Shown in pieces: positions 5,333 through 64,000 of a DNA stretch of 64,000 bases; positions within the stretch are counted from its first letter, which is position 1; every line of letters begins with the position of its first letter. Both the position numbers and the translations under genes were made by a program. Origin of the DNA: Tubiluchus corallicola. Lineage: Eukaryota > Priapulida > Priapulimorpha > Priapulimorphida > Tubiluchidae. The stretch is taken from contig JAQGDQ010000221.1 of the NCBI GenBank assembly GCA_030141605.1, positions 1 to 64,000 of the forward strand. Reading direction: 5' to 3'. Under the pieces are notes generated by a model. It was not told where the DNA came from. It ran no database searches and saw only the letters and a list, made by a program, of their open reading frames with translations.

Positions 5333-5899
5333 GCGGCAGGCGTTTCCTTGTTGACCTTGAGATCAGGTGTCGAAGGTCAGTCACGGTCAGAGGAATTAAT
5401 AAAAACGTAAGGAAATTTCAGAGGTGTTGGTGCTTAAAAGCAAAACATTAAATTCTTATTACACATCTATTTAAAAATAAATATCTTGAATAATTTCCTA
5501 AAATCAGCATTAATAGTAAATTGTCAGAAAAATTGATTACAAAAATAGTAGAAACATTTCATCGTATTCATACGGTGTGAAATTTCAATTTAAAGCGAGT
5601 TTTTAGCTGTTTGTAAAAATTCAGTAACCTTGTCCTTTAACAGGAATACAAATTGATTAATGACTGCACCTGTTCCACTAATCTTACTAGCGTCTCTGTA
5701 AGTGTGGCCTCTCTGGGTGGCCAGGGTCACATCTGAATATAAGAAGCCTTTTACCATCGTAGTCAAGATCTGCTGTCTGATCATCACTAGGTTGAGTTTG
5801 AAGGGCATTCGTATACAAGCAAATTCTTCTTCCTTTTGAATACGCTGAGCACTGACACACATACAACTGTAGTTAAAACATTTTTAAAATATTAAAAAC
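5333..5899. other. no gene recognised
   Basis: A 90-codon minus-strand open stretch (5590-5862) has ordinary amino-acid composition but no family I recognise and no clear splice signals. I leave it uncalled. Confidence 0.4.
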
Positions 5900-5905
5900 A
5901 TTGCC

Positions 5906-5916
5906 ACACATGCACG

Positions 5917-5951
<35 letters not shown>

Positions 5952-6008
5952 ACGCACACGCAAAAAACATGCACACAAGCGCACGCGCGCACGCACGCGC
6001 ACACACAC
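5906..6008. repeat. CA/CACGCA dinucleotide repeat
   Basis: Alternating purine-pyrimidine run of CA with interspersed CG steps, interrupted once by AAAAAACATG. Confidence 0.9.
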
Positions 6009-6269
6009 AACTGTAGCTGAAGAAAGTTCCCACTCAAACCGGTTTAACAATGTTTATCAATATACTTATACTTTTTTAAAATTCCACTTGCAAAATTGTG
6101 CAGACTGTCTACCATGCAAGAAAGCTGACACTGTTAACTCTGGCCAAGAACTGTTGCTCATGTACTCATGCAAAATAATGTTTTTCTGTTAAGCAAAAAG
6201 GGTTTCAATAAACTTAGGACCCCAATAACTTGATATGATACAATAAAAAGTAGCCGTCAGTTTCTTAGT

Positions 6270-6465
6270 TTGATTGTTCATTTGCATTCATTCGTTCGTT
6301 CATTCGTTCGCTCGTTCGTTTATTCACTCATTCACTCATCCAACTCTTTCACTCTTTCACTCACTCACTCTTTCACTCGCTCGCTCATTCGTTCGTTCGT
6401 TCGTTCGTTCGTTCATTCACTCATTCATCTCCCCTTTCCTTCTCCCACTCTCCCTCTCCCTCTCC

Positions 6466-6495
<30 letters not shown>
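6270..6495. repeat. TTCA/TTCG tetranucleotide array passing into (CT)n
   Basis: TTCA, TTCG and CTCA units to about 6430, then pure CT/CCCT. It creates long artificial open frames of Ser-Phe-Ile-His type that are not genes. Confidence 0.9.
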
Positions 6496-6496
<1 letters not shown>

Positions 6497-7424
6497 ACCT
6501 TACAAGCTCTGAATAAAATGTATTAAAATTTTAGTTTTAGCTGGATTTGATGCTAATTTATTGATTTGAAACCAGTTTGTAAATTTACTGAGCATTATTG
6601 ACGATACTAGTGTCCAGTAGCTTTATAATTGATTTTTCAAAATGGCGCCTTTTCAATATTTTTAACTCTTTAGTTCACTTGTGCGATACAAGATTTATAT
6701 AAAGAATAGATTGCGTAGGTTAACTTTGCTCTCCATTCAAAGAGAATTGGTTACTGAGGTGAATAATTACAAAGTTGTAAATTACTTTGCTAGAATGAGT
6801 CATAGATGAAAGAGGTTGCTTTAAGATACTTTTTTTATAATGCTTTATTTTGTTTTCATTTTACGTTTAAAATTAAAATAATTAAATAACGTGTTTTTAT
6901 TACGTTTTGAGATTCAAGAGCTTACTGTAAAACTTTTTATTGTGTTTTAATTTTAAATACAAAATAACAATCTTCAAAACTTATCTTTCTCTTGTTTAGA
7001 TTTTAAACACAAAATTAAAATGTATAATCAAACCGTAATTGAACCTATGTTAATTACAAGAATCAAAGTTCCAGGAATGCTATCTTGCTTTCATGGCGTT
7101 TATTTGTCAAAGTTCTAAAACTTGACTACATTAAGTTGCGAGAAATTGATAACTTTTTTCCATTTATCGTTCGCGAAGCCAATTTTCGTTTCTCACTCAA
7201 TCAGACCTAAATCATTATCTTTATGCGGCGCCAAAGCCTGAATTACAGCTTGTAAATAAACTCGAATAGAATCATTCACGCGAAACGAATGAGCGTTTTT
7301 CAGATTTTAGCCGAAGATTATGCGCTCAAAATGGAGATTCGATCGTTCAATTTTTGAGCCAGAATTGTTATGCAAATGCTTCGGCATATTATTCATGTCT
7401 CCATTATAGGGAATTGGGTTTAAT
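6496..7424. other. no gene; possible regulatory stretch at 7140-7390
   Basis: AT-rich. The part from 7140 to 7390 is less biased and contains an octamer ATGCAAAT near 7369 and several TAAT cores. It looks like non-coding complex sequence, but conservation cannot be judged here. Confidence 0.4.
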
Positions 7425-20868: not shown

Positions 20869-20983
20869 AAGCCTACAGCGCCTGGTATTCCTAGGCGGTC
20901 ACCCATCCAAGTACTAACCAGTGTTGCTTAACTTCTGTGATCAGACGAGAACCGGTGTTTTCAACGTGATTTGGCCGTAGTCT
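20869..20983 (-). rRNA. 5S rRNA-like gene, probably a pseudogene
   Basis: On the minus strand it runs from GACTACGGCC to GCTGTAGGCTT and contains the conserved CACCGGTTCTCGTCTGATCA, AGAAGTTAAGCAAC, CTGGTTAGTACTTGGATGGG and TGACCGCCT blocks. It is 115 nt instead of ~120: the bases normally between AAGCAAC and CTGGTTAG (GTYGGGC region) are missing, which shortens the internal promoter spacing. No T-run terminator follows. It is therefore a single degenerate or SINE-borne 5S copy, lying between inverted repeats. Confidence 0.8.
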
Positions 20984-45772: not shown

Positions 45773-45817
<45 letters not shown>

Positions 45818-46477
45818 CTACCTACCTACCTACCTACCTACCTACCTACCTACCTACCTACCTACCTACCTACCTACCTACCTACCTACCTACCTACCTA
45901 CCTACCTACCTACCTACCTACCTACCTACCTACCTACCTACCTACCTACCTACCTACCTACCTACCTACCTACCTACCTACCTACTTACCTACCTACCTA
46001 CCTACCTACCTACCTACCTACCTACCTACCTACCTACCTACCTACCTACCTACCTACCTACCTACCTACCTACCTACCTACCTACCTACCTACCTACCTA
46101 CCTACCTACCTACCTACCTACCTACCTACCTACCTACCTACCTACCTACCTACCTACCTACCTACCTACCTACCTACCTACCTACCTACCTACCTACCTA
46201 CCTACCTACCTACCTACCTACCTACCTACCTACCTACCTACCTACCTACCTACCTACCTACCTACCTACCTACCTACCTACCTACCTGCCTACCTACCTA
46301 CCTACCTGCCTACCTACCTACCTACCTACCTACCTACCTGCCTACCTACCTACCTACCTACCTACCTACCTACCTACCTACCTACCTACCTACCTACCTA
46401 CCTACCTACCTACCTACCTACCTACCTACCTACCTACCTACCTACCTACCTACCTACTTACTTACTTACTTACTTAC
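45772..46477. repeat. (CTAC)n tetranucleotide array, ~700 bp
   Basis: More than 170 CTAC/CTAC-like units with (TTAC)n at both ends and a few CTGC variants. It yields a 278-codon Leu-Pro-Thr-Tyr open frame, an artefact of the 4-bp period (12-bp register). Confidence 0.97.
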
Positions 46478-46483
46478 CTTCTC

Positions 46484-46560
46484 AGTCACCCATCCAAGTA
46501 CTAACCCGCCTCGTCGTTGCTTAACTTCGGTGATCAGAGGAGAACCAGTGTCATCAACCT
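46484..46560 (-). rRNA. 5S rRNA-derived fragment (pseudogene)
   Basis: The minus strand reads ACTGGTTCTCCTCTGATCAC, CGAAGTTAAGCAACG and GGGTTAGTACTTGGATGGGT, the central part of 5S rRNA. Both 5S ends are absent or rearranged, and the CTAC array abuts the 3' side. Confidence 0.7.
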
Positions 46561-46706
46561 GTTTTGAACAACAGGTATCTTCAGCGCCGTAATCGCGTAT
46601 AAGCACCTGCTCGTCATGTACAAGAATTGCAAACTTGCTACATAGGAACACGTAGTCATGCGTATAAATTGTCCTCAAATACCAGCAAAATCCACACTAA
46701 GTTTCG

Positions 46707-46867: not shown

Positions 46868-47091
46868 CTAGGATTCACAAATATACGGCAGTTTTGCTGT
46901 ATCACACGAGAAGTCATTCCACGTGTTCCCATTTGCCCTCAGGATGGCGCAGCTTTCGCCATCGCCGTAATTATCCGGTTGGCCATCTGCTACGTCCCAA
47001 GAAGTAAAAAGGGCAGGTCGACCTGTTGCAGACCACCTCCAGTCACCCTCCTCGTGTATGTCGGTTAAGCCAATCCAAAAATGCTCACCAG
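46868..47091 (-). CDS. C-type lectin domain protein, terminal exon
   Basis: This exon encodes the C-terminal half of a C-type lectin fold, which binds carbohydrate through a calcium ion and is usually extracellular. The frame begins at a 3' splice site (TTTTTAATAAAG before 47,091) in phase 1 and stays open for 73 codons to TAG at 46,868-46,870. Visible motifs in order: FWIGLTD, the W-x-W pair (DWRW), QPD followed by N and a Glu eight residues on, then Cys, WND, and C...LPYICES. Q, D, E, N and D are the expected calcium-site ligands; QPD is the galactose-type version. Three cysteines fit the domain's conserved disulphides. It has no start codon because it is an internal-to-terminal exon. The N-terminal half of the domain (first Cys, W-x-x-A-x-x-x-C) was not found between here and 48.9 kb. 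The frame is intact, so the gene is probably live, with earlier exons upstream to the right. Confidence 0.85.
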
Positions 47092-48165: not shown

Positions 48166-48246
48166 ATTAGGGTTAGGGTTAGGATTTGAGTTTGGGTTAC
48201 GGAGCGTTGGGGAAGGATTAGGGTTTGGTTAGGGTTAAGGTTAGGC
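48166..48246 (+). repeat. interstitial telomere-like TTAGGG repeats
   Basis: GGATTAGGGTTAGGGTTAGG followed by degenerate TTAGGGTT units to about 48,246. Confidence 0.75.
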
Positions 48247-48782: not shown

Positions 48783-48940
48783 TAATATATTATACTGCTA
48801 GCTTAAGCGTTAGTCTGTACTGTAATCATAAGCATTTTGGTTCAAATAATGTCTTAGATCAGTGAAGTTGACAGCTCAAAAAAGTGTCTACCTGTCATAA
48901 CCAGTAATAAGCAATCATAACCTACCTGTCATAACCTAAC

Positions 48941-49552
48941 CATCATTTGGATTAACATTTTTATGCAGTTTTGGCTCTTTCATTCGCTTCAGTCCATTGT
49001 CTTGAAGGTCAATATAATTGAACCTCGGACTGTTTGTCAAGTACAACTCCAAATGTTCCAGGTTCTTGCAGCCATGAATGGCAATGCGTTGCAGCTCACT
49101 GAATTCGTAAAACAACTCAGGTTCAATTTTATGCAAATTTTGCAATTCAATCAACCGGAAATTCTTAACTTTGACCACGATATTGCTTTCGCCTAAGCTT
49201 TCCAAATTTGCTCCCCAGAAGCAAATGCTAAGACAGCGACGGTCCTTCCAATTAAAAATCCTGGAGGTAGTATGGTTTCTGAGTACTGGTAAATAGAGAG
49301 ACCGTCCAAAAAGACAGGGAGTGCCTTCTCTGTGGCTACAAGTCGTGTCATGTCGATCTTATGGTTCACCCCGCATGACACGTGACATGTTGTAAGTCCA
49401 GTTGTCTTGTTGCATTCTTCTACGCTGGGTTCAAGTTCACATGGCTGGTTAGGAGCGGCTTCTACGAATGTTGTAGAAAATTCCTTGCAAACTGATTTTA
49501 AGAGAAAAGTTGCTACTACTTGCAAGATATGCCTTTTTAACAAAGCCAACAT
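48941..49552 (-). pseudogene. LRR receptor N-terminal exon, frameshifted
   Basis: Paralogue of exon 1 of the gene at 58.9-59.6 kb. ATG at 49,552 starts a signal-peptide-like MLALLKRHILQVVATFLL, followed by a cysteine cluster (C-x-LEP...C...C-x-x-x-C-G), then an LRR region. Near 49,210 the frame is broken: the first part ends in a stop at 49,193, and the rest continues in another frame from the same position with motifs aligning to the paralogue (FRLIELQNLHKIEPELF, LEHLELYL, PKLHKNV). A donor G|GTTAGG at 48,941/48,940 keeps the phase-1 position of the intact gene. No EGF exon follows on this strand. It may be a dead gene, a programmed or sequencing frameshift, or the 5' part of a different gene. 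Confidence 0.7.
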
Positions 49553-49739
49553 GTTGCTTTCTAAATTACTTTATACACGAAAAGATTGGCAGCTTGGATA
49601 CAGAAAATCATTGCCGAACAATGTGAATATGTAATTATGTTAATGCGAGTTTTTTTTAAATATTCTATTCGGGGAAACAATGAAATAACAACAACGAGAC
49701 AATGGGTTCTTGTGTCACGTTCAACGCAGAGACTTGTCT

Positions 49740-50960
49740 CGCAATAGAAGTTGCCAAGTCGCTCACACGTTGAAACAAGTTGTGAAAGAAGTTGCCAAGC
49801 TGTCCACACGTTGAAACAAGTTGCGAGAAAAGTTGCCAAACCGTCCACACGTTGCAGCAAGTTGTGAGAGAAGTTGCCTAGCCGTTCACACGTTGCAGCA
49901 AGTTGTGAAAGAAGTTGCCAAGCCGTTCACACGTTGCAGCAAGTTGTGAAAGAAGTTGCCAAGCCGTTCACACGTTGCAGCAAGTTGTGGAAGAAGTTGC
50001 CAAATCGTTAACATGTTGCAACAAGTTGTGAGAGAAGTTGCCAAACCGTCCACGCGTTGCAGCAAGTTGTGAAACAAGTTGCCAAACCGTCCACACGTTG
50101 CAGCAAGTTGTGAGAGAAGTTGCCTAGCCGTTCACACGTTGCAGCAAGTTGTGAAAGAAGTTGCCAAGCCGTTCACACGTTGCAGCAAGTTGTGGAAGAA
50201 GTTGCCAAATCGTTAACATGTTGCAACAAGTTGTGAGAGAAGTTGCCAAACCGTCCACGCGTTGCAGCAAGTTGTGAAACAAGTTGCCAGGCCGTTCACA
50301 CGTTGCAGCAAGTTGTGAAAGAAGTTGCCAAGCTGTTCACATGTTGCAGCAAGTTGTGGATTGCCAAGCCGTCCACACGTTCCAACAAGTTGCGAGAGAA
50401 GTTGCCAAATCGTTCACATGTTGCAACAAGTTGTGAGAGAAGTTGGTAAAACGTTCACACGTTGCAACAAGTTTTGAGAGAAGTTGCCCAACCGTTCACA
50501 CGTTTCAACAAGTTGCGAGAAAAATTACCAAGCCGTCCACACGTTGCAACTCGTTGCGAGAGAAGTTGCCAAACCGTCCACACGTTGCAGCAAGTTGTGA
50601 AAGAAGTTGCCTAGCCGTTCACACGTTGCAGCAAGTTGTGAAAGAAGTTGCCAGGCCGTTCACACGTTGCAGCAAGTTGTGAAAGAAGTTGCCAAGCCGT
50701 TCACATGTTGCAGTAAGTTGTGGAAGGAATTGCCAAGCCGTCCACACGTTCCAACAAGTCGCGAGAAAAGTTGCTAAACCGTCCACACGTTGCAACAAGT
50801 TGCGAGAGAAGTTGCCAAACCGTTCACACGTTGCAACAAGTTGCGACAGAAGTTGCCAAACCATTCGCACGTTGCAACTCGTTGCGAGAGAAGTTGCCAC
50901 ACCGTTCACACGTTGCAACTGTACTCCCAGAAAGAAGTTGCGCAACAAGTTGTGAGACAA
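49740..50960. repeat. 41-bp minisatellite, about 29 units
   Basis: Consensus GTTGCCAAGCCGTTCACACG followed by TTGCAGCAAGTTGTGAAAGAA, with higher-order variants. 41 is not a multiple of three, so successive units are read in different frames. It starts about 190 bp upstream of the ATG of the frameshifted LRR exon. Confidence 0.95.
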
Positions 50961-51692
50961 GTCTCTCCCTCTGAACGCGCTATAATATAGTGATTGTAAT
51001 ATCAGAACCAAACTGAAGCTGTTAATTTGGTTAGAATTTGGTCAGATTACTTCTAGAGTAGGACCATCCCAATACAACAAATAACCCCTAAATCACAGCG
51101 ATGTGTTTGCAATCAAGATATGTGTTCGAAGTGGTGATCCGTAATAAATTCTTAGGAAAAAAGTCACAGGAAGTCACAATTTTGGTGAGGAAAATGTTAC
51201 AGAAAAACTAACAATTTTGGTTAGGAAAGAGTCACAGAAAAAAGTCACAGTTTTGGCTAGGAAAAAGTCAAGAAAAAGTAACAATTTTGGCTAGAAAAAG
51301 TCACAGAAAAAGTGACAATTTTGTCGTGAACTGATTCACGAGTTTGTTTATGAACTTTATAAACTTTAGCAACATTACAACTTTACAGCAAGTTAGACTA
51401 CAGTGAATCATTTTCTCACCTGACTGGTTTCTGATATGCATTACCCAAGGTTAACCAGTTTCAACTGATTTCAACTATTTTTAATCTAGTAGTCACAACG
51501 TAGAGTGCAGAAAAGACAGTCAATAATGAAGTGTTTGTGCCACTAAAGGAGTTAGGTTTATGAGTTTGGTTGCTACATATGTTGACAAAAGCCTTTTTCA
51601 CAAATTCTGGGTAGAAAAGAATGTTAGGTAATCAAACAAAGTATTCAAGTCATTCATAATTTATTTAGCGATCATAAAAACGGCAAATATTT
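50961..51692. other. no gene; degenerate AGTCACAGAAAAA repeats
   Basis: AAAAAGTCACAGAAAAA and ACAATTTTGG phrases recur about six times at 51,150-51,325. No other feature. Confidence 0.6.
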
Positions 51693-52771: not shown

Positions 52772-52777
52772 TTTATT
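52772..52777 (-). terminator. candidate poly(A) signal downstream of the tail-exon array
   Basis: AATAAA on the minus strand, 130 nt past the stop of the last tail exon. I found no AATAAA inside the ~303-bp repeat units, so transcripts using any tail exon may share this 3' end. Confidence 0.4.
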
Positions 52778-52906
52778 TCAGAGGCGCAATAAAACACATA
52801 ATTATAGCACACGGTTACATCACTACACACATTTTAGTTTAAATTAATTTTGTTTCACTCATAGTGATTTTTCTCTTGATGTTCAATGAAATGCGTCAGA
52901 TCAATT

Positions 52907-53025
52907 TTATTTTAAAGTATTTTTCTCTAGCCTTTCAACTGCTCTCCGTTGTTTCACTACTGTACCTTTGGATTCTCCTTGTATAGTTTTTTCACTGTCT
53001 GATTCTTCACTGTCTTTGCTAAAGC
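52907..53025 (-). CDS. tail exon copy A (9th from the donor)
   Basis: Acceptor TTTTGCAG; codons 53,023-52,910 give 38 residues starting FSKDSEESDSEKT and ending RLEKNTLK, stop TAA at 52,907-52,909. Most distant copy, with two acidic-to-other changes (E to K, E to I). Short basic C-terminus class. Confidence 0.7.
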
Positions 53026-53130
53026 CTGCAAAATGATAACAACAAATATTGTAAACATGTTTAGTAGACTAGTGTAAGTTGCCAAATGCGTACATGTATG
53101 AGTCATACAGTTAGTTTGCTAGCTACCACT

Positions 53131-53327
53131 TTAGTTAAAATTAAATTTTGTTTCACTTCTTGTGATTTTTCTCTTGATGTTTAATGAGATACATCGGTCA
53201 CAGATCAATTTTATCAGAGTATTTTTCTCTAGCCTTTCAACTGCTCTCCGTTGTTTCACAACTGTACCTTCGAATTCTCCTTGTTCAGTTTTTTCACTGT
53301 CTGATTCTTCACCATCTTCACTAAAGC
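53131..53327 (-). CDS. tail exon copy B (8th)
   Basis: Acceptor TTTTGTAG instead of GCAG. 64 residues: FSEDGEESDSEKTEQGEFEG, then VVKQRRAVERLEKNTLIKL and a long basic extension ending ETKFNFN. The extension results from a shifted frame after LEK. Stop at 53,131-53,133. Confidence 0.7.
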
Positions 53328-53513
53328 CTACAAAATGATAACAACAGATCTTGTAAACATGTTTAGTAGACTAGTGTCAACTGTCAATTGCATACATGTA
53401 TAAGCCATACAGTTAGCTAGCTAGCTAGCCACTTTAGTTAAAATTAAACTTTGTTTCACTCCTTGTGATTTTTCTCTTGATGTTTAATGAAATACGTCAT
53501 TCGCAGATCAATT

Positions 53514-53632
53514 TTATCTTAAAGTACATTTCTCTAGCGTTTCCACTGCTCTCCGTTGTTTCACTACTGTACCTTTGGATTCTCCTTGTTCAGTTTTTCC
53601 ACTGTCTGATTCTCCACTATCTTCACTAAAGC
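53514..53632 (-). CDS. tail exon copy C (7th)
   Basis: 38 residues, FSEDSGESDSGKTEQGESKG then TVVKQRRAVETLEKCTLR, stop TAA at 53,514-53,516. Short class; Arg to Thr before LEK and a cysteine in the C-terminus. Confidence 0.7.
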
Positions 53633-53804
53633 CTGCAAAATGATAACAACAAATATTGTAAACATGTTTAGTAGACTAGTGTCAGTTGCCAATTGCATAC
53701 ATGTATAGCCATACAGTTAGTTTGCTAGCTAACCACTTTAGTTAAAATTAAATTTTGTTTCACTCCTTGTGACTTTTCTCTTTATGTTCAATGAAATACG
53801 TCAT

Positions 53805-53935
53805 TCACACATCACTTTTATCTTCTAGTATTTTCTCTAGCCTTTCAACTGCTCTCCGTTGTTTCACTATTGTACCTTTGGATTCTCCTTGTTCAGTTTT
53901 TTCACTGTCTGATTCTCCACTATCTTCACTAAAGC
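53805..53935 (-). CDS. tail exon copy D (6th)
   Basis: 42 residues, FSEDSGESDSEKTEQGESKG then TIVKQRRAVERLEKILEDKS and DV, stop TGA at 53,805-53,807. Ser-Asp-Val at the C-terminus matches the class I PDZ-ligand pattern. Confidence 0.7.
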
Positions 53936-54040
53936 CTGCAAAATGATAACAACAAATATTGTAAACATGTTTGGTAGACTAGTGTCAGTTGCCAATTGCA
54001 TACATGTATGAGTCATACAGTTAGTTTGCTAGCTACCACT

Positions 54041-54237
54041 TTAGTTAAAATTAAATTTTGTTTCACTTTTTGTGATTTTTCTCTTGATGTTTAATGAGAT
54101 ACATCGGTCACAGATCAATTTTATCAGAGTATTTTTCTCTAGCCTTTCAACTGCTCTCCGTTGTTTCACAACTGTACCTTCGAATTCTCCTTGTTCAGTT
54201 TTTTCACTGTCTGATTCTTCACCATCTTCACTAAAGC
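54041..54237 (-). CDS. tail exon copy E (5th)
   Basis: Near-identical to copy B including the TAG acceptor; one Arg to Lys change in the 64-residue extended tail. Stop at 54,041-54,043. Confidence 0.7.
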
Positions 54238-54423
54238 CTACAAAATGATAACAACAGATCTTGTAAACATGTTTAGTAGACTAGTGTCAACTGTCAATTG
54301 CATACATGTATAAGTCATACAGTTAGCTAGCTAGCTAGCCACTTTAGTTAAAATTAAACTTTGTTTCACTCCTTGTGATTTTTCTCTTGATGTTTAATGA
54401 AATACGTCATTCGCAGATCAATT

Positions 54424-54542
54424 TTATCTTAAAGTACATTTCTCTAGCGTTTCAACTGCTCTCCGTTGTTTCACTACTGTACCTTTGGATTCTCCTTGTT
54501 CAGTTTTTCCACTGTCTGATTCTCCACTATCTTCACTAAAGC
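54424..54542 (-). CDS. tail exon copy F (4th)
   Basis: 38 residues, same protein as copy C (…VETLEKCTLR); the DNA differs by at least one synonymous change. Stop at 54,424-54,426. Confidence 0.7.
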
Positions 54543-54714
54543 CTGCAAAATGATAACAACAAATATTGTAAACATGTTTAGTAGACTAGTGTCAGTTGCC
54601 AATTGCATACATGTATAGCCATACAGTTAGTTTGCTAGCTAACCACTTTAGTTAAAATTAAATTTTGTTTCACTCCTTGTGACTTTTCTCTTTATGTTCA
54701 ATGAAATACGTCAT

Positions 54715-54845
54715 TCACACATCACTTTTATCTTCTAGTATTTTCTCTAGCCTTTCAACTGCTCTCCGTTGTTTCACTATTGTACCTTTGGATTCTCCTT
54801 GTTTAGTTTTTTCACTGTCTGATTCTCCACTATCTTCACTAAAGC
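54715..54845 (-). CDS. tail exon copy G (3rd)
   Basis: 42 residues as copy D but with KTKQGES in place of KTEQGES. Ends LEDKSDV. Stop at 54,715-54,717. Confidence 0.7.
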
Positions 54846-55018
54846 CTGCAAAATGATAACAACAAATATTGTAAACATGTTTGGTAGACTAGTGTCAGTT
54901 GCCAATTGCATACATGTATGAGCCATACAGTTAGTTTGCTAGCTAACCACTTTAGTTAAAATTAAATTTTGTTTCACTCCTTGTGACTTTTCTCTTTATG
55001 TTCAATGAAATACGTCAT

Positions 55019-55149
55019 TCACACATCACTTTTATCTTCTAGTATTTTCTCTAGCCTTTCAACTGCTCTCCGTTGTTTCACTATTGTACCTTTGGATTCT
55101 CCTTGTTCAGTTTTTTCACTGTCTGATTCTCTACTATCTTCACTAAAGC
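55019..55149 (-). CDS. tail exon copy H (2nd)
   Basis: 42 residues as copy D but with SEDSRES (Gly to Arg). Ends LEDKSDV. Stop at 55,019-55,021. Confidence 0.7.
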
Positions 55150-55322
55150 CTGCAAAATGATAACAACAAATATTGTAAACATGTTTGGTAGACTAGTGTC
55201 AGTTGCCAATTGCATACATGTATGAGCCATACAGTTAGTTTGCTAGCTAACCACTTTAGTTAAAATTAAATTTTGTTTCACTCCTTGTGACTTTTCTCTT
55301 TATGTTCAATGAAATACGTCAT

Positions 55323-55453
55323 TCACACATCACTTTTATCTTCTAGTATTTTCTCTAGCCTTTCAACTGCTCTCCATTGTTTCACAACTGTACCTTCGAA
55401 TTCTCCTTGTTCAGTTATTTCGCTGTCTGATTCTCCACTATCTTCACTAGAGC
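55323..55453 (-). CDS. tail exon copy I (first acceptor after the transmembrane exon)
   Basis: Nearest acceptor to the donor at 55,765, intron 311 bp. 42 residues: SSEDSGESDSEITEQGEFEG then TVVKQWRAVERLEKILEDKS and DV; the basic RR of other copies is WR here. Stop TGA at 55,323-55,325. By proximity this is the default tail of the gene model. Confidence 0.8.
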
Positions 55454-58400
55454 CTGCAAAATGATAACAACAAATATTGTAAACATATTTAGTAGACTAG
55501 TGTCAATTGTCAATTGCATACATGTATAAGCCACACAGTTAGCTGGCTAGCTAACCAGCTAGTTAGTTGGCATTAGGCCACTCGCTCGCCTGTTTGTTCG
55601 TTTGTTCGTCTGCTAGGTAGTTATGTCGAAGTAGTTGTCGTAGTCTGCCCTTCATCCTCGATTGTGAAAATGATTCACTCTGAATAGCATACGCGCTCTG
55701 ATTAAACCAACGTGGTAACCAGACAACAGCGACTCAACTATTTTAAAGGAAAAACAAAGCATACCCGTGATCGCCTTCCGGTGCTTTTGTTTTTGACATC
55801 TAAAAATTACATAAGTTGCTAGCAAAAACAATACAATCAGAGAAACTGCTGAGCCCACAAGTTTCCCGTTGCTAATTAAGTTTTCTTTGTCTTCAGTGTT
55901 AAATTGACATTGCGATCCATTATTTCCACTCAAGCATGTACACGTGTATTTATTAACAAAATCAAAACAATTGCCTCCATTCTGGCACGGATTAGAAGCA
56001 CACTCATTGTAATTTGTTTGACACTGGTTTCCCACATAACCTTGTATACAGTGACAATTGTAATTATTTATACCATGCAGACATGTGCCACCATTTTTGC
56101 ATGGATTGCTTGCACACTTGGTGTTATTCAGATTACACACATACTCCCCAAGTTCATTTATACAGACGCATGTGTAATACCCATCTTCATTAACACATAT
56201 TCCACCGTCTTTACAAGGATTATCAAGCAGGCATTCGTTAACATCAGTTTCACAAGTTTTTCCAGTGAATCCTGCTGTGCAGTCACACGTGTAATTGTTT
56301 ACCTTGTCTACACACGTTCCGCCATGTTTGCATGGCTTGTGCAGTTGCTGGCATTCATTAATATCAGTTTCACAAGTTCTTCCAGTGAATCCTGCAGTGC
56401 ATTCACACGTGTAATTGTTTACCTTGTCTACACACATTCCGCCATGTTTGCATGGCTGGTGCAGTTGCTGGCATTCATTAATATCAGTTTCACAAGTTCT
56501 TCCAGTGAATCCTGCAGTGCATTCACACGTGTAATTGTTTACCTTGTCTACACACGTTCCGCCATGTTTGCATGGCTGGTGCAGTTGCTGGCATTCATTA
56601 ATATCAGTTTCACAAGTTCTTCCAGTGAATCCTGCAGAGCAGTCACACCTGAAATCGTTTATCAGGTCCACGCAGGTTGCACCATTCTTGCACGGCTGAC
56701 GCAGATCTTCACATTCATTAATATTTATACTGCATTTCTCGCCTGTGTATCCGGGATCACACATGCATATCGCTGTTGGGTTACCAGGTGCACACGTTCC
56801 ATGACCACATGAACTTGGTTTACACAATTCAACTTCACAAGTGGTTCCATTGTAGTCATCAGTACAGTTACAAGTAAAACTGTTCACACCGTCTATGCAT
56901 GTCCCACCATTTCTGCATGGATTGCTTTCACACTCATCGATGTTTTGCTGACACAGCTGCCCCTCAAATCCAGACGCACAGTTACATTTGAAAGAGCCAA
57001 ATGAATTAACACATGTTCCACCATTTTTACAAGGATTAGCAAGCTGGCATTCATTAACATCCGTTTCACAAGTTCTTCCAGTGAATCCTGCAGTGCAGTC
57101 ACACGTGTAATTGTTTACCTTGTCTACACACGTTCCGCCATGTTTGCATGGCTTGTGCACCTGCTGGCATTCATTAATATCAGTTTCACAAGTTCTTCCA
57201 GTGAATCCTGCAGAGCAGTCACACCTGAAGTCGTTTATCAGGTCCACGCAGGTTGCACCATTCTTGCACGGCTGACGCAGATCTTCACATTCATTAATAT
57301 TTATACTGCATTTCTCACCTGTGTATCCGGGATCACACGTGCATTTCGCTGATGGGTTACCAGGTAAACACATTCCATGACCGTTGCACGATCTTGGGTT
57401 ACACCCTTCAACTTCACATGTAGCTCCACAGTAAACACCGGCACAGTTACAAGTAAAACTGTTCACACCGTCTATGCATGTCCCACCATTTCTACATGGA
57501 CTGCTTTCACACTCATCGATGTTTTGCTGACACAGCTGCCCCTCATATCCAGACGCACAGTTACATTTAAAAGAGCCAAATGAATTAACACATGTTCCAC
57601 CGTTTTTACAAGGATTAGCAAGCTGGCATTCGTTAATATCCGTTTCACAAGTTCTTCCAGTGAATCCTGCAGAGCAGTCACACCTGAAATCGTTTATCAG
57701 GTCCACGCAGGTTGCGCCATTGTTGCACGGCTGACGCAGATCTTCACATTCATTAATATTTATACTGCATCTCTGACCTGTGTATCCAGGATAACACCTG
57801 CATTTCGCTGATGGGTTACTAGGCAAACACATTCCATGACCGTTGCACAATCTTGGTTTACACCCTTCAACTTCACATGTGGCTCCAAAGTAAACACCGG
57901 CACAGTTACAAGTAAAACTGTTCACACCATCTATGCATGTACCACCATTTTTGCACGGATTTGACTTACATTCATCTATAGGTATGCAAAAAGGTACCTC
58001 ATCACCCGGGGGACAAGATGTACACTTAAAATCATCTATCTGCAAATTGGAATTGTGGGTCTTTCCTCGATTGTGGTCAGGATGGTAACAAGTATATTCA
58101 ATACTCCCGCCAGGTCTGATATATTTGTCCAGAAAAGTTGAATTAGCCACCCATCTTAGATAGCAGTTACATGTTAGCTGCTTGTTTCCTGCAAAACAAA
58201 AAATCACAGACTTGGTTCATACCAAATACGTTCTCATCACAATGTAATGGAAACCGACAAGCTTATTTACTGGATAATTTCACCGTCGGATTTTTGTACA
58301 GTGGGGCTCTAAGCTCAAGATATTTGACCTCCATAGCAGTTAATTGACAACCTCGATGCTTGCCTGGATTCGTACTTTGAAACTGCAGCATACGTTGGTA

Positions 58401-59604
58401 GTTAACTCAGCTTCATTTCAAACTATGAAATGATGTTTCAGGAATTTGATTGGTTGACACCTGGTGTTAAAATATAATGGAAACACTTGATGTAAAAGAA
58501 TGTCAGTCTTTACAAAGACTATGTCACTAACGATGTGATGCCTCACCAGCTATGGTATTCAGTTATGGTTGGACATATTTAAAATTCAACCCAAACACAC
58601 CAAGTAATCATTAACAAGCGATAAATCTACAAGAAAATAACGCAACAGATTAAAATCTACCCAGACTACTTGACATAAGAAACCCTCTACAGTACTATAG
58701 TATTATGATTCGTAACAGTGACCACTTGGTGAAACGTGTCCACATTTTCTAAATAGATGTCAGCAGGCAGTACGTTTGCCTCATCTTTGGTTATTTTGTT
58801 TTTATGAAAGAAACTTTCCGTATACTGGATTAAAATGATTGTTCAACAATCACTTATTTTGTTCCCAAGTAACAGCATTATTTGTCTAGATTACTTGAAA
58901 CGTTTACCGTGCCAAATGAATGATTACATACCTTTCAGGTTCACTCTCAAATTACGAACATTTTCATGCAGCCGAGGTGTTACGACATACTTTAGCAGAT
59001 TATTACCGGAAATTTGAAGGTTTGATAAAAAGGAGGACTTTTCCATTTTAACGTCAACTGTCTCAAGTTGAGGATTCGTCGTTATGATGAGGTCACGAAG
59101 CTGCTGACAATTTGAAAAGTCCAGAGAAAGTGAAGTAAGTTTCCACAGCAGCTTCAACTTCAAATATGTCATGGTGTTTTGATCTGCAAATGCATCATGA
59201 TGAATAGATTCTAGTTTCTTAGCATAATCAATTTCGAGATGTTCGACTTTTCCCCCAAATGTGTCTCTATCAATACTAACAATGCTAGTTAGCGCAAATT
59301 GAATCCATTTTAATTTTTTTCCTTGCAACCAGTTTGTAGGTATCGCATCACTTTTATAATAAGGCAGTTGGAGTATATCTCCATCTACAACGTTTCTGTC
59401 CAATTCACGCAAATCACTTTCTTTCAAATTGAGATGAGCATATATTTGTCCACACTGAAACTTGCAGTTAACGCCTCCTGCGATCTGTTTAATGCTGGAA
59501 CACTTGCCGCTTAAAAATATTTTAGGCTCTAGGTCTCGGCACCTAGCTTCTGTATCAAGAAACGTAATTAAGGCACTCAGAAGTAAAAAAAACGTGGTCC
59601 TCAT
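55323..59604 (-). CDS. LRR-EGF single-pass receptor, complete gene model (default tail)
   Basis: Joining 59,604-58,932, 58,188-55,765 and 55,453-55,323 gives 3228 nt, 1075 residues, with no internal stop; both introns are phase 1 with GT-AG ends (AAAG|GTATGT...TTTTGCAG; ACGG|GTATGC...TTTTGCAG). Predicted layout: signal peptide ~1-20, LRR region ~25-224, C-terminal LRR cap ~225-290, 18 EGF repeats ~296-990, transmembrane helix ~1001-1020, cytoplasmic stretch QKQKHRKAIT then a ~42-residue acidic/basic tail. EGF-type receptors of this form act at the cell surface in adhesion or recognition; no ligand can be inferred. It is the only complete member of a tandem family in the window. Tail choice may vary (copies A-I). 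Nearest known architectures share LRR plus EGF (Slit-like) or long EGF arrays (Notch, Crumbs, fibropellin), but the short cytoplasmic end fits none of these. Confidence 0.85.
55765..58188 (-). CDS. receptor exon 2: LRR cap, 18 EGF repeats, transmembrane helix
   Basis: 2424 nt, symmetric phase 1-1. It opens with an LRR C-terminal cap (LTCNCYLRWVANSTFLDKYI ... C ... C-x-x-C). Eighteen six-cysteine EGF modules follow. Many have the calcium-binding pattern (D-I-N-E-C ... D-x-x-N-x-Y/F-x-C), O-fucose sites (C-K-N-G-G-T-C) and O-glucose sites (C-x-S-x-P-C in repeats 1, 5, 10, 17 and 18). Repeats 1-4, 5-9 and 10-15 are three diverged copies of one block, the second and third extended by extra INECQQ-type modules. 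Repeat 5 has an extra cysteine (VYCGATC where repeat 1 has VYFGATC). Repeat 16 is atypical (CINELGEYVC). The exon ends with GSAVSLIVLFLLATYVIF and KQKHRKAIT before the donor. All 18 modules lie in one exon without introns. Confidence 0.93.
58189..58931 (-). other. intron 1 of the receptor gene
   Basis: 743 bp, GTATGT donor and TTTTTGTTTTGCAG acceptor, phase 1. No repeat or RNA gene recognised inside. Confidence 0.85.
58932..59604 (-). CDS. receptor exon 1: signal peptide and LRR region
   Basis: The ATG at 59,604 starts MRTTFFLLLSALITFLDTEA, a clear signal peptide; one in-frame codon upstream is TTG, not a start. Four cysteines (C-R-D-L-E-P ... C ... C-x-x-x-C-G) resemble an N-terminal LRR cap, followed by degenerate LRRs (LKWIQFALTSIVSIDRDTF, VEHLEIDYAKKLESIHHDAF, LKLLWKLTSLSLDFSNC, LRDLIITTNPQLETVDV, LSNLQISGNNLLKYV). 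The exon ends NLK and the first base of Gly. Exon 2 supplies the LRR C-terminal cap, so the intron lies between the last LRR and its cap. Confidence 0.9.
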
Positions 59605-61745: not shown

Positions 61746-62704
61746 AATAATACACATAATTACATAAAATACTTCTTTAACAGATGAAGAGATGAAGCAG
61801 TTTAGTTTTGCATATGTACAGCTGTGAAATCGGCACAGGTAACATAGTTATGTTTAACGCATACTTGCCGCTTATTGGTTATTTTAAAAATGCATAAACA
61901 CAGGTGATTCCTACAGGTCGTGGAGCAGTGAAATTCTCGATCTAGCTAGACAGTTGTTACTTGATTTTTGAGCATATCGTAACGTGTGGCAAACACGTCT
62001 AAAGTCTGTCCACACTGCTCAGTTCAAACATCTCTAACGAGATTGAGATGTTTTGATTTATACTATTGTGGAACTTCCTCAAATGATATAAACGAGTAGA
62101 AACGGCTTGTAATATGGTCAATTGAATACGGAACTTAATCTAGACCTGTATTGGTGAGACTCCCAGCAAGTTGGCAGACGGAGTCAAGCAAGCTAGACCC
62201 ACGAGGAAGTTGTAGCGACCATGTCCGGTGATGAGGCGAAGAGGTGGCGATCCGTGAGGTGAGCTGCAAGCGGCTGTCGGAACTTGGTGGAATCGAATGA
62301 TGGATGTTATGGTATGAATTGACAAGGCATGGAATGGAATGGAATGTTGCAGATACGTTTACAAAGTCTAGTGATGAAACCATTGTCATGGAATGGAAAT
62401 AAAATGGTGACGCAGTTAATGTCAAGACTAGAACTCCGACGTGGTAAACCCGGTACCGGTATGCTTGTAGCCTCGTACACACATGTACAGTTTTGCTTAA
62501 ATGATCTGTGCACAGTTTTTTTCATGCATATTATATTTGTAATTAAATAAAGCAATTGAATTTAATGCCCAGTTTGTTTAGACTAATTGAGATTGTCAAT
62601 CAGTAATTTTTTTTCTAAATATTACATCACAACAGTGACGACGTTACACGTTAGGGAAATAACACAGAACCCATAACACGTGCTTTAGGAAGGACCGTCA
62701 CATA
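61746..62704. other. insertion between duplicated flanks; no gene established
   Basis: About 950 bp absent from the paralogous 52.8-kb position. The part 62,130-62,480 is richer in G+C; it has a plus-strand MSGDEAKRWRSV start followed by a consensus donor (GAG|GTGAGC) and a 115-codon minus open frame, but no domain in either. A (TGGAA)n patch lies at 62,328-62,345. Confidence 0.4.
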
Positions 62705-62816
62705 CATCACTACACACACTTTAGTTAAAATTAAATTTTATTTCACTTCTTTTGATGTTCAATAAAATACGTCATTCACCAATCACTTTTATCTTAAAGT
62801 ATTTTTCTGTAGCCTT

Positions 62817-62905
62817 TCAACTGCTCTCGGTTGTTTCACTACTACCTTCGGATTCTCCTTGTTCAGTTATTCCACTTTCTGATTCTCCACTATCTTCACT
62901 AGAGC
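62817..62905 (-). CDS. tail exon copy J of the neighbouring paralogue
   Basis: Acceptor TTTTGTAG at 62,906; phase-1 entry as in copies A-I. 28 residues: SSEDSGESESGITEQGESEG then SSETTESS, stop TGA at 62,817-62,819. Two bases are missing after GAAGGTA relative to the other copies, so the basic KQRRAVE segment is replaced by a Ser/Thr/Glu end. The intron to the transmembrane exon is 292 bp. Only one copy is present here, so the array of nine is specific to the other gene. Confidence 0.65.
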
Positions 62906-63197
62906 CTACAAAATGATAACAACAAACATTGAAACAAACATCTAGTAGTGTCAATTGTCAATTGCATACATGTATAAGCCAACAGTTAGCTAGCTAACTA
63001 GCCAGTCAGTTAGTTAGTTGGCAATTAGGCCACTTGCTCTCCTGTTTGTTCATTTGCTAGGTAATTACGTCTAGGTAGTTAGTCTGCCCTCCGTCCTCAA
63101 ATGTGAAAATGATTCACTTTGAATAGCATATGCTCTCTTTGGAAACCAAAGTGGTAACTGGTAACCAGACAACAGCAACTAGACTATTTAAGCATAC

Positions 63198-63344
63198 CCG
63201 TGATCGCCTTCTGGCGTCTTTGTTTTTGCCATCTAAAAATTACATAAATTGCTAGCAAAGACAACACAAACAGAGCAACTGAAACTGCTGAGCCCAAAAC
63301 TGTCGAGTTGCTGATTGACTTCTTTTGGTCTTCAGCCTTCAGTA
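63198..63344 (-). CDS. transmembrane exon of the neighbouring paralogue
   Basis: Acceptor CATTTTCAG before 63,344 and donor G|GTATGC after 63,198 bound a 147-nt exon, phase 1 at both ends. It encodes LKAEDQKKSISNSTVLGSAV, the helix VALFVLSLLAIYVIF and RWQKQRRQKAIT, close to the end of exon 2 of the complete gene. Unlike there, the EGF region is not fused to it: an intron separates them, so the EGF exons should lie beyond 64,000. If they do not, this is a fragment. Confidence 0.7.
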
Positions 63345-64000
63345 CTGAAAATGATTGAGTCAACATTGAAATTACTTGCAGAATATTTAAGCAACTACAA
63401 CAGACACAATTTGGGATTAGCATTAAATGATTTTTAAGAATCATTTTTAATATAATTGATTTTATTTTAACAGTTGATGGAAAAATTTAGTCACACAATT
63501 TGCATGTTAAGTTGAGCAAACGTCCTTTAATTTATACGAACACGTATCGGGCCTGATTACAAATTATGGTTTTCATGATAATCGCCACAGTGTACGGTAT
63601 GGTTGCAGTTTCGTTTTAAACTCTGAGGCTTGAAAAAGCTAGATGACACTAATGGATGTCCACCATCCATTGAAAGGTATCATTATTCCTTTTCTTGTTA
63701 AGCCGTTTTACTTTATATATATTGTAATTACTGTTATGTGTATTTTTAGATTGTTTGAAGTATCTACCATTGATACCTTTAATATCATTGTGATACTTTT
63801 CTTTTTCATCAACAATAGATGGTGACAATATTTTTTATCATCCATAAAAATGTCATTGTAGTTTAGCCTAAGGTATATATTGGCCAATGTTGAACTATGA
63901 AAATACTGAAAACCGAATATTTTGGAAACAGCATTTGTCATATTCAGCATTGACCTAAACTAGTGGAGAAACAATTAGCTTATGAGTATAACTAAAATGG
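63345..64000. other. intron or flank of the paralogue; no exon recognised
   Basis: No EGF-like or LRR-like frame on the minus strand to the window end. A short AT-rich dyad around 63,760-63,830 is not interpretable. Confidence 0.4.

Follow-up and report, generated by a model that had tools for sequence, protein, structure and literature searches.

In the 64,000-nucleotide stretch of Tubiluchus corallicola DNA analyzed here (the window), a receptor gene on the minus strand carries its last unit, made up of an intron end, the tail exon, and the start of the 3′UTR, nine times in tandem. Tandem Repeats Finder delineates a single array at 52,833–55,557 (period 304, 9.0 copies, 92% matches, 1% indels, score 4463). 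The reading that we favor, with about even confidence, is a young tandem array produced by unequal exchange, in which the first acceptor would be dominant.

The gene is composed of an LRR-like exon, an EGF/transmembrane (TM) exon, and a tail, which join in frame into a predicted protein of 1,075 aa with the first tail:

58932..59604, minus strand: exon 1, an open frame with the ATG, a signal-peptide-like start, and an LRR-like region; donor AAG/GTATGT, phase 1
55765..58188, minus strand: exon 2, an 854-aa open frame with an LRR C-terminal-cap-like region, an EGF run, and a TM segment; donor CGG/GTATGC after 55,765, phase 1
55454..55764, minus strand: intron of 311 nt between the TM donor and the acceptor of unit 1

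The EGF run of exon 2 is recognized by Pfam (3.6e-109, 16 stretches) and is followed by a hydrophobic segment, SAVSLIVLFLLATYVIF, as befits an EGF-repeat membrane receptor; the TM segment and the LRR C-terminal-cap label were both assigned by eye. The LRR signal of exon 1 stays below the Pfam cut-offs (25.6 bits against 27 for LRR_8 and 23.8 bits against 27.7 for LRR_5), and a low-confidence structure model of the region, with strands about 23 residues apart, has a mean pLDDT of 47.7; we therefore use the term LRR-like rather than LRR. The gene had been described in an earlier note as an LRR-EGF receptor: the EGF part stands, while the LRR part has to be softened in this way. No homolog of exon 1 was found in the protein database at E ≤ 0.001 among 170 candidates of 0.55–1.75 times its length of 224 aa, a range outside which long receptors fall, and no PDB sequence matches it at E ≤ 0.1. 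The whole receptor matches 2782 proteins, with 7966 candidates sharing most words scored; among the 120 matches listed, none is better than E 0.21 for the LRR-like part or than E 5 for the TM-tail part, in a search that could miss relatives resembling the LRR-like part alone.

The units follow one another at spacings of 304, 304, 303, 305, 302, 303, 305, and 302 bp and share 82.4–99.7% pairwise identity. They fall into five kinds that differ by several percent: unit 1; units 2, 3, and 6; units 4 and 7; units 5 and 8; and unit 9. Each of the nine acceptors is directly preceded by TTTTGCAG or TTTTGTAG, and every unit is open to a stop when read in the phase that the donor after 55,765 imposes; these nine open frames do not amount to nine independent facts because the units copy one another. 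In the list below, the upper coordinate is the first exon base of the tail, as located by script, and the lower one the end of its stop:

55323..55453, minus strand: unit 1 tail, 43 aa, ending KSDV; in-phase GT after 55,394; mosaic of two unit types
55019..55149, minus strand: unit 2 tail, 43 aa; in-phase GT after 55,090
54715..54845, minus strand: unit 3 tail, 43 aa; in-phase GT after 54,786; first of block 3–5
54424..54542, minus strand: unit 4 tail, 39 aa, ending CTLR; in-phase GT after 54,483
54041..54237, minus strand: unit 5 tail, 65 aa; in-phase GT after 54,178
53805..53935, minus strand: unit 6 tail, 43 aa; in-phase GT after 53,876; first of block 6–8, a near-copy of block 3–5
53514..53632, minus strand: unit 7 tail, 39 aa, ending CTLR; in-phase GT after 53,573
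53131..53327, minus strand: unit 8 tail, 65 aa; in-phase GT after 53,268
52907..53025, minus strand: unit 9 tail, 39 aa, the most diverged unit; in-phase GT after 52,966

The earlier note had claimed nine tandem units, each with an acceptor, a phase matching the donor at 55,765, and a stop, and this is what we find, at the coordinates that it gave. The in-phase GT located 60 nt into every unit is absent from that note.

Both paralogues found, B and B′, have one tail each, and both share the exon 2 donor of the array gene. The tail of B is as follows:

62817..62905, minus strand: single tail exon of paralogue B, GSSEDSGESESGITEQGESEGSSETTESS and a stop

As read from the sequence, the last 3′ unit of one member of a small LRR-like/EGF receptor family would have been duplicated, apparently via a short intron/3′UTR match, AACTAA, and the array would then have grown to nine by block duplication and exchange between copies. 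The 3′UTR-to-intron junction is identical at the boundaries of units 2–9. Units 3–5 and 6–8 form a pair of 910-bp blocks that are about 99% alike; their end-to-end alignment has 12 differing columns, seven of them within the first 10, where a 1-nt indel shifts one block, so that the blocks are separated by about five substitutions and one indel. By its sequence, this pair is a recent block duplication. All 21 columns that differ between units 1 and 3 lie in the first 195 of 326, with none after, and unit 1 is therefore a mosaic. Over the whole unit, it is the closest to B (79.4% identity versus 73.3–77.0% for the other units), partly because its upstream intron is intact. Over 21 codons, units 1, 4, and 7 tie for the fewest differences from B (four), and relative to B′, unit 1 is among the farther units, with 10 codon differences against six for units 4 and 7. 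No sequence feature marks out unit 1.

The near-identity of the 910-bp blocks would also be expected if the assembly had raised the copy number, most plausibly in block 3–5/6–8, the true array being shorter; the count of nine comes from one contig-level assembly of 2344 contigs. We regard this as very improbable. Divergence of several percent separates the five kinds of unit, which makes an assembly artefact unlikely as the whole explanation, and no second copy of the array appears among the matches listed in the genome search, in which counts are lower bounds. The window also contains other long arrays, for example 176 copies of TACC, which are no proof of correctness at the tail array. Contig C2328, to which the receptor cluster aligns at about 80–91%, together with pieces of the window at 45.3–49.9 kb, is thought unlikely to be the other allele of the locus, since positions 1–45 kb of the window gave no match above 400 bits to 251–311 kb of C2328 among the matches listed.

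Alternative last exons are expected to carry a poly(A) signal of their own in each unit. AATAAA occurs in none of units 1–8, one copy overlaps the stop of unit 9 (52,911), and the weaker ATTAAA is present in four of the nine units (4, 5, 7, and 8), lying within the open frame in units 5 and 8. The first signal beyond the array is the following, and the next AATAAA after it lies at 51,665:

52772..52777, minus strand: first AATAAA past the array, likely the shared poly(A) signal

Without AATAAA, units 1–8 therefore do not resemble self-contained last exons, and any alternative use of the units would most likely be a choice of acceptor inside one common 3′ end. The description of the units as nine alternative terminal exons thus holds for their intact acceptors, phases, and stops but not for the signals of units 1–8, nor for their pattern of change, which is neutral-like (see below). 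The first acceptor is favored when splicing happens during transcription. The likeliest course is that most transcripts join 55,765 to 55,453 and terminate close to the AATAAA at 52,777, which would leave units 2–9 largely within a long 3′UTR. As the other eight acceptors are nearly identical, some splicing to them may be expected; the resulting tail variants would be noise or low-level variation, not a maintained nine-way switch.

A rather unlikely alternative is a choice among the nine acceptors, in which each transcript would join the donor at 55,765 to a single one of them, with a common 3′ end and four classes of C terminus (KSDV, CTLR, a long basic tail, and NTLK). The retention of acceptor, phase, and stop in all nine units speaks in its favor, as do the tail classes, which differ in charge and end: four of the nine tails end in S-x-V, which we take to be a class I PDZ-like end, and five keep DSGxxxS, which we take to resemble a beta-TrCP degron, both motifs being short enough to occur by chance. 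However, the C termini result from a 2-nt difference from the paralogues. The tails of the two single-tail paralogues end SSETTESS and a stop, and each of the nine units in the array has 2 extra nt at this end and reads on into what is 3′UTR in the paralogues. The general preference for the first acceptor in co-transcriptional splicing also argues against an open choice. Precedents exist in Drosophila pip and PGRP-LC, whose mutually exclusive 3′ regions are duplicated in tandem, with a single one used per transcript (eight clusters in pip) and with the choice reported to involve competing RNA structures between a docking site and the units (PMC9013439). An array of this type would place homologous 3′ units, with acceptor and phase in agreement, behind a single donor, as nine of nine units do here. 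The terminal-exon array, which the earlier note considered unusual, is to that extent not without parallel. In contrast to pip and PGRP-LC, the repeats here would encode a receptor cytoplasmic tail, and exclusive choice among them is putative. We saw no sign of a docking/selector switch in the 201-nt common intron, the one intron covered, whose pairing with the nine unit introns stays within the shuffle range (z from −0.1 to +2.1, 100 shuffles each).

Sequence change within the array bears on the same question. Variable columns among the nine units amount to 19/111 in the intron part, 14/60 in exon bases 1–60, 6/45 in bases 61–104, 7/27 from base 105 to the stop, and 15/70 beyond; within the array, the exon therefore does not stand out clearly from its surroundings in conservation. 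Replacement changes make up 11 of the 14 changes in bases 1–60 (79%, with 74% expected) and 14 of 19 over 102 nt (74%, with 72% expected), a fit to the neutral expectation that leaves the nine tails not visibly maintained and argues against one-of-nine use, in a test low in power with 14 changes in 60 bases. In the same receptor family, the ectodomain is constrained (omega 0.30–0.47); for the tails, omega relative to B is undefined in seven of nine units because silent changes are zero. The first 60 exon bases show no indel among units, and all acceptors, phases, and frames are intact. The array consensus differs from B at 5/60 positions in exon bases 1–60, 2/42 in bases 61–104, 16/104 in the intron part, and 3/52 beyond the stop. 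That the exon is nearer to B than the intron part favors alternative tails and could reflect constraint, but the region past the stop is equally close.

The in-phase GT lying exactly 60 nt into each of the nine units would allow another arrangement, which we consider quite unlikely: units 1–8 would act as symmetric 60-nt cassettes, entered and left in phase 1, with unit 9 as the last exon, giving up to nine acidic 20-aa repeats per tail. The U1 pairing of these sites (−5.6 to −7.9 kcal/mol) is comparable to that of the receptor's own donors (TM donor, −6.5; exon 1 donor, −8.4). A precedent is provided by chicken BG, whose tails comprise 13–36 exons of 21 or 24 nt, varying in number between genes and presumed to form a coiled coil; in BG1, an unspliced intron yields another C-terminal stretch (PMC4046983). 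The likeness is a receptor tail built from many small repeated exons; here, the candidate exons are 60 nt long, the tail is acidic, and unit-to-unit splicing is putative. An acceptor and an in-phase GT stand 60 nt apart in all nine units, none with G at +5. The usual donor preference includes G at +5, and the sites would be weak by that measure. In addition, of 1500 stretches drawn at random from the window, 144 hold an in-phase GT whose pairing reaches −5.6 or better, and a single founder site is therefore an event of about 10% by chance. Exon bases 1–60 show no lower variability within the array than the rest does. A comparison of B with B′ by eye reveals two silent changes and none of replacement in the nine codons past the GT, a pattern that points to coding use of these codons in the paralogues and to read-through of the site. 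The GT site also exists in B (−7.5) and B′ (−7.6), and a pattern search aimed at the tail acceptor found no second copy of it in the stretches of B and B′. In these single-tail relatives, the donor-like site would have no partner; under chained use, it would have become usable only once a second acceptor appeared downstream.

Dscam-type clusters are composed of internal exons for Ig domains. The array resembles them as a set of tandem near-copies of one exon, but it lies at the 3′ end with a stop in every unit; AATAAA follows unit 9, and no later exon was noticed in passing. In the shrimp Penaeus monodon, the Dscam tail variants 44.1 and 44.2 are likewise alternative exons for the tail, and the stop codon depends on which of them is used; they are two variants, not nine, are derived from transcripts, and belong to another receptor class (PMC6851185). 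Among the titles and abstract openings listed in searches of open-access papers, we saw no receptor whose terminal tail exons form a tandem array of some nine copies.

The young array favored here is apparently a terminal-exon array caught soon after its origin, with single-tail paralogues for comparison. It poses a testable question: is duplication of a last exon enough to bring about alternative splicing, or does the first acceptor prevail for as long as regulation has yet to evolve? The array could give the receptor alternative inner tails and, if several were used, the receptor of one gene could signal in several ways. It is also conceivable, though unlikely, that an immune-type receptor is growing a modular tail by unequal exchange, its units being used singly, with or without the degron-like and PDZ-like motifs, or chained as acidic 20-aa repeats; if so, tail length and signaling would vary between alleles and transcripts.

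Gene A, the minus-strand receptor gene that carries the tail array, reads in frame through three exons and would encode 1,075 aa with its first tail; the two exons upstream of the tail are the following.

59,604-58,932, minus strand: exon 1, in-frame join, LRR-like
58,188-55,765, minus strand: exon 2, in-frame join, 16 EGF stretches and a hydrophobic segment

The 16 EGF stretches (Pfam EGF, 3.6e-109) bear out the EGF part of the LRR-EGF receptor proposed in the earlier note, and the hydrophobic segment is read from the sequence as transmembrane (TM). The LRR part stays below the Pfam cut-off (LRR_8, 25.6 bits vs 27), and the structure model of exon 1, made from a two-sequence input, is weak (mean pLDDT 47.7), with four strands spaced about 23 residues apart; the label is a fair one, its LRR part unproven. 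Tandem near-copies of a 120-bp EGF unit are present in exon 2 (56,230-56,724; 91% over 4.1 copies), so the ectodomain also seems to be growing by repeat exchange.

The nine-unit array of tail exons is real. It spans 52,833-55,557 (304-bp unit, 9.0 copies, Tandem Repeats Finder; unit spacing 302-305 bp), and the acceptors, entry phases and stops attributed to the nine units by the earlier note were all found where it had placed them. Each unit, numbered from 1 to 9 in transcript direction, contains an intron end, the tail exon and the start of the 3'UTR, and at the boundaries of units 2-9 3'UTR sequence abuts intron sequence. Downstream of unit 9 the sequence resembles the 3'UTR of B', a paralogue on contig C2328, and carries AATAAA at 52,777, the next one being at 51,665. 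No AATAAA was found in units 1-8; ATTAAA occurs in units 4, 5, 7 and 8, and lies within the open frame in units 5 and 8. The ending S-x-V is found in four of the nine tails, and DSGxxxS is kept in five; these short motifs resemble a PDZ ligand and a degron, respectively, and are offered as ideas for tests only.

Units 3-5 and 6-8 form a pair of 910-bp blocks that differ by roughly five base changes and a single 1-nt indel. The 21 columns at which unit 1 differs from unit 3 all fall within the first 195 of 326, which makes unit 1, judged by its sequence, a mosaic of unit types. Together, the block pair and the mosaic point to sequence exchange among the copies; the nine intact frames are thus inherited jointly and cannot be counted as nine lines of evidence.

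A 651-bp query against the assembly (343.5 Mb, 2344 contigs, animal by gene content) gave at least 11 matches, match counts in this search being lower bounds. The array accounts for nine of them; the others are paralogue B at 62,717-63,233 and B' on C2328. Each paralogue has a single tail, GSSEDSGESESGITEQGESEGSSETTESS in B and GFSEDSGESESGKTEKGKSGGSSETTESS in B', closed by a stop. Between B and B', the final nine codons differ, by eye, by two silent and zero replacement changes; over all 29 tail codons there are 5 replacements and 3 silent changes. Directly after GGTA, all nine array units carry two extra bases relative to B and B', and therefore leave the B/B' frame and run on into sequence equivalent to the 3'UTR of both paralogues. 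Because SSETTESS is shared and varies silently, the state of B is likelier the ancestral one in this outgroup-free comparison.

Among the three genes, only A looks complete.

C2334, about 62,700-73,500 (window 62,700-64,000 and the pieces L009 and L010 beyond it): paralogue B, EGF exon with a stop and a ~5-kb interruption

Paralogue B is broken: an in-frame stop lies in its EGF exon, which runs into ~5 kb that B' is without. This interruption looked retroelement-like; a 111-aa piece scanned against Pfam matched no family. Searching C2328 251-281 kb for exon 1 gave nothing at E <= 1e-3, so B' may be without the LRR-like part. The EGF exons of B (L009, about 2,300-2,790) and B' (L012, a piece beyond the window, 5,580-6,660) have an in-frame end, NKDYCIANVRDY and a stop, so that a secreted form may exist alongside the membrane form.

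An LRR-like gene fragment lies at window 48,936-49,570 (26% to exon 1; Pfam match below the cut-off). Its counterpart on C2328 (271.1-272.1 kb, 88%) is located after B', and gene A was not seen there. The fragment adjoins a 41-bp minisatellite of about 29 copies (49,746-50,917), found partly on C2328 too. Also in the window are 176 TACC copies (45,775-46,479) that overlap a 5S rRNA-like match at its edge (46,460-46,575, 45.1 bits), a further 5S match (20,870-20,982, 73.9 bits), a C-type lectin domain exon on the minus strand (46,871-47,089, Lectin_C 4e-12) and a short, contig-internal, degenerate TTAGGG array (48,167-48,245).

Variable columns among the nine units number 14/60 at tail exon positions 1-60, 6/45 at 61-104, 7/27 from 105 to the unit 3 stop, 15/70 beyond it and 19/111 in the intron part. 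Replacements account for 11 of the 14 changes at positions 1-60 (79%, where an expectation that weights transitions 4:1 gives 74%) and for 14 of 19 over 102 nt (74% vs 72% expected). Compared with B over 21 codons, units 2-8 each have 4-7 replacements and not a single silent change, unit 1 has three replacements and one silent change, and unit 9 nine and two. Omega of the nine units against B' is 0.76-1.99; it is 0.38 for the 29-codon tail between B and B', 0.47 for exon 1 between A and B, and 0.30-0.38 in four EGF comparisons. Neither replacement shares nor omega showed purifying selection in the array tails, whose shortness leaves the test little power. Two comparisons run in the opposite direction or are neutral. 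Between B and the array consensus, 5/60 positions differ in exon 1-60, 2/42 in exon 61-104 and 16/104 in the intron part; past the stop the two are as near as in the exon (3/52), so the closeness of the exon is not confined to coding sequence. Unit 1 is the nearest to B, but units 4 and 7 lie closer to B' (6 differences each over 21 codons; unit 1 has 10), and the unit taken as the main one is thus not singled out by sequence.

In each unit a GT lies exactly 60 nt into the tail exon, in the entry phase, and the tandem layout gives every such GT except the last an acceptor ~243 nt downstream. A real alternative absent from the earlier note, if quite an improbable one, is that these 60-nt pieces are chained as cassettes, which would give acidic 20-aa repeats in the tail. 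In U1 pairing the GT (-5.6 to -7.9 kcal/mol) is near the TM donor after 55,765 (-6.5) and weaker than the exon 1 donor (-8.4), and it is without G at +5. Such an in-phase GT is held by 144 of 1500 random window stretches, and the same GT occurs in B (-7.5) and B' (-7.6), where a pattern search showed no second copy of the tail acceptor, so it was probably present by chance before the array arose. Chained pieces in gene A would resemble the many small tail exons described for chicken BG genes (PMC4046983).

That the units serve as alternative ends of the receptor, as the earlier note suggested, is rather doubtful. In a test modelled on competing-structure schemes and confined to the common intron, pairing of this intron with the intron part of each unit was no better than in shuffles (z -0.1 to +2.1). 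Precedents come from pip and PGRP-LC, tandem terminal exons with exclusive choice (PMC9013439), and from shrimp Dscam, whose alternative tail exons choose the stop (PMC6851185). The most economical reading, to which we give an even chance, is a young array with a dominant first acceptor: splicing would go mainly to that acceptor, at 55,453, and the later units would lie mostly within the 3'UTR. Given the precedents, the array of gene A would be a variant of an already known arrangement; its usefulness lies in its youth and in the single-tail relatives available for comparison.
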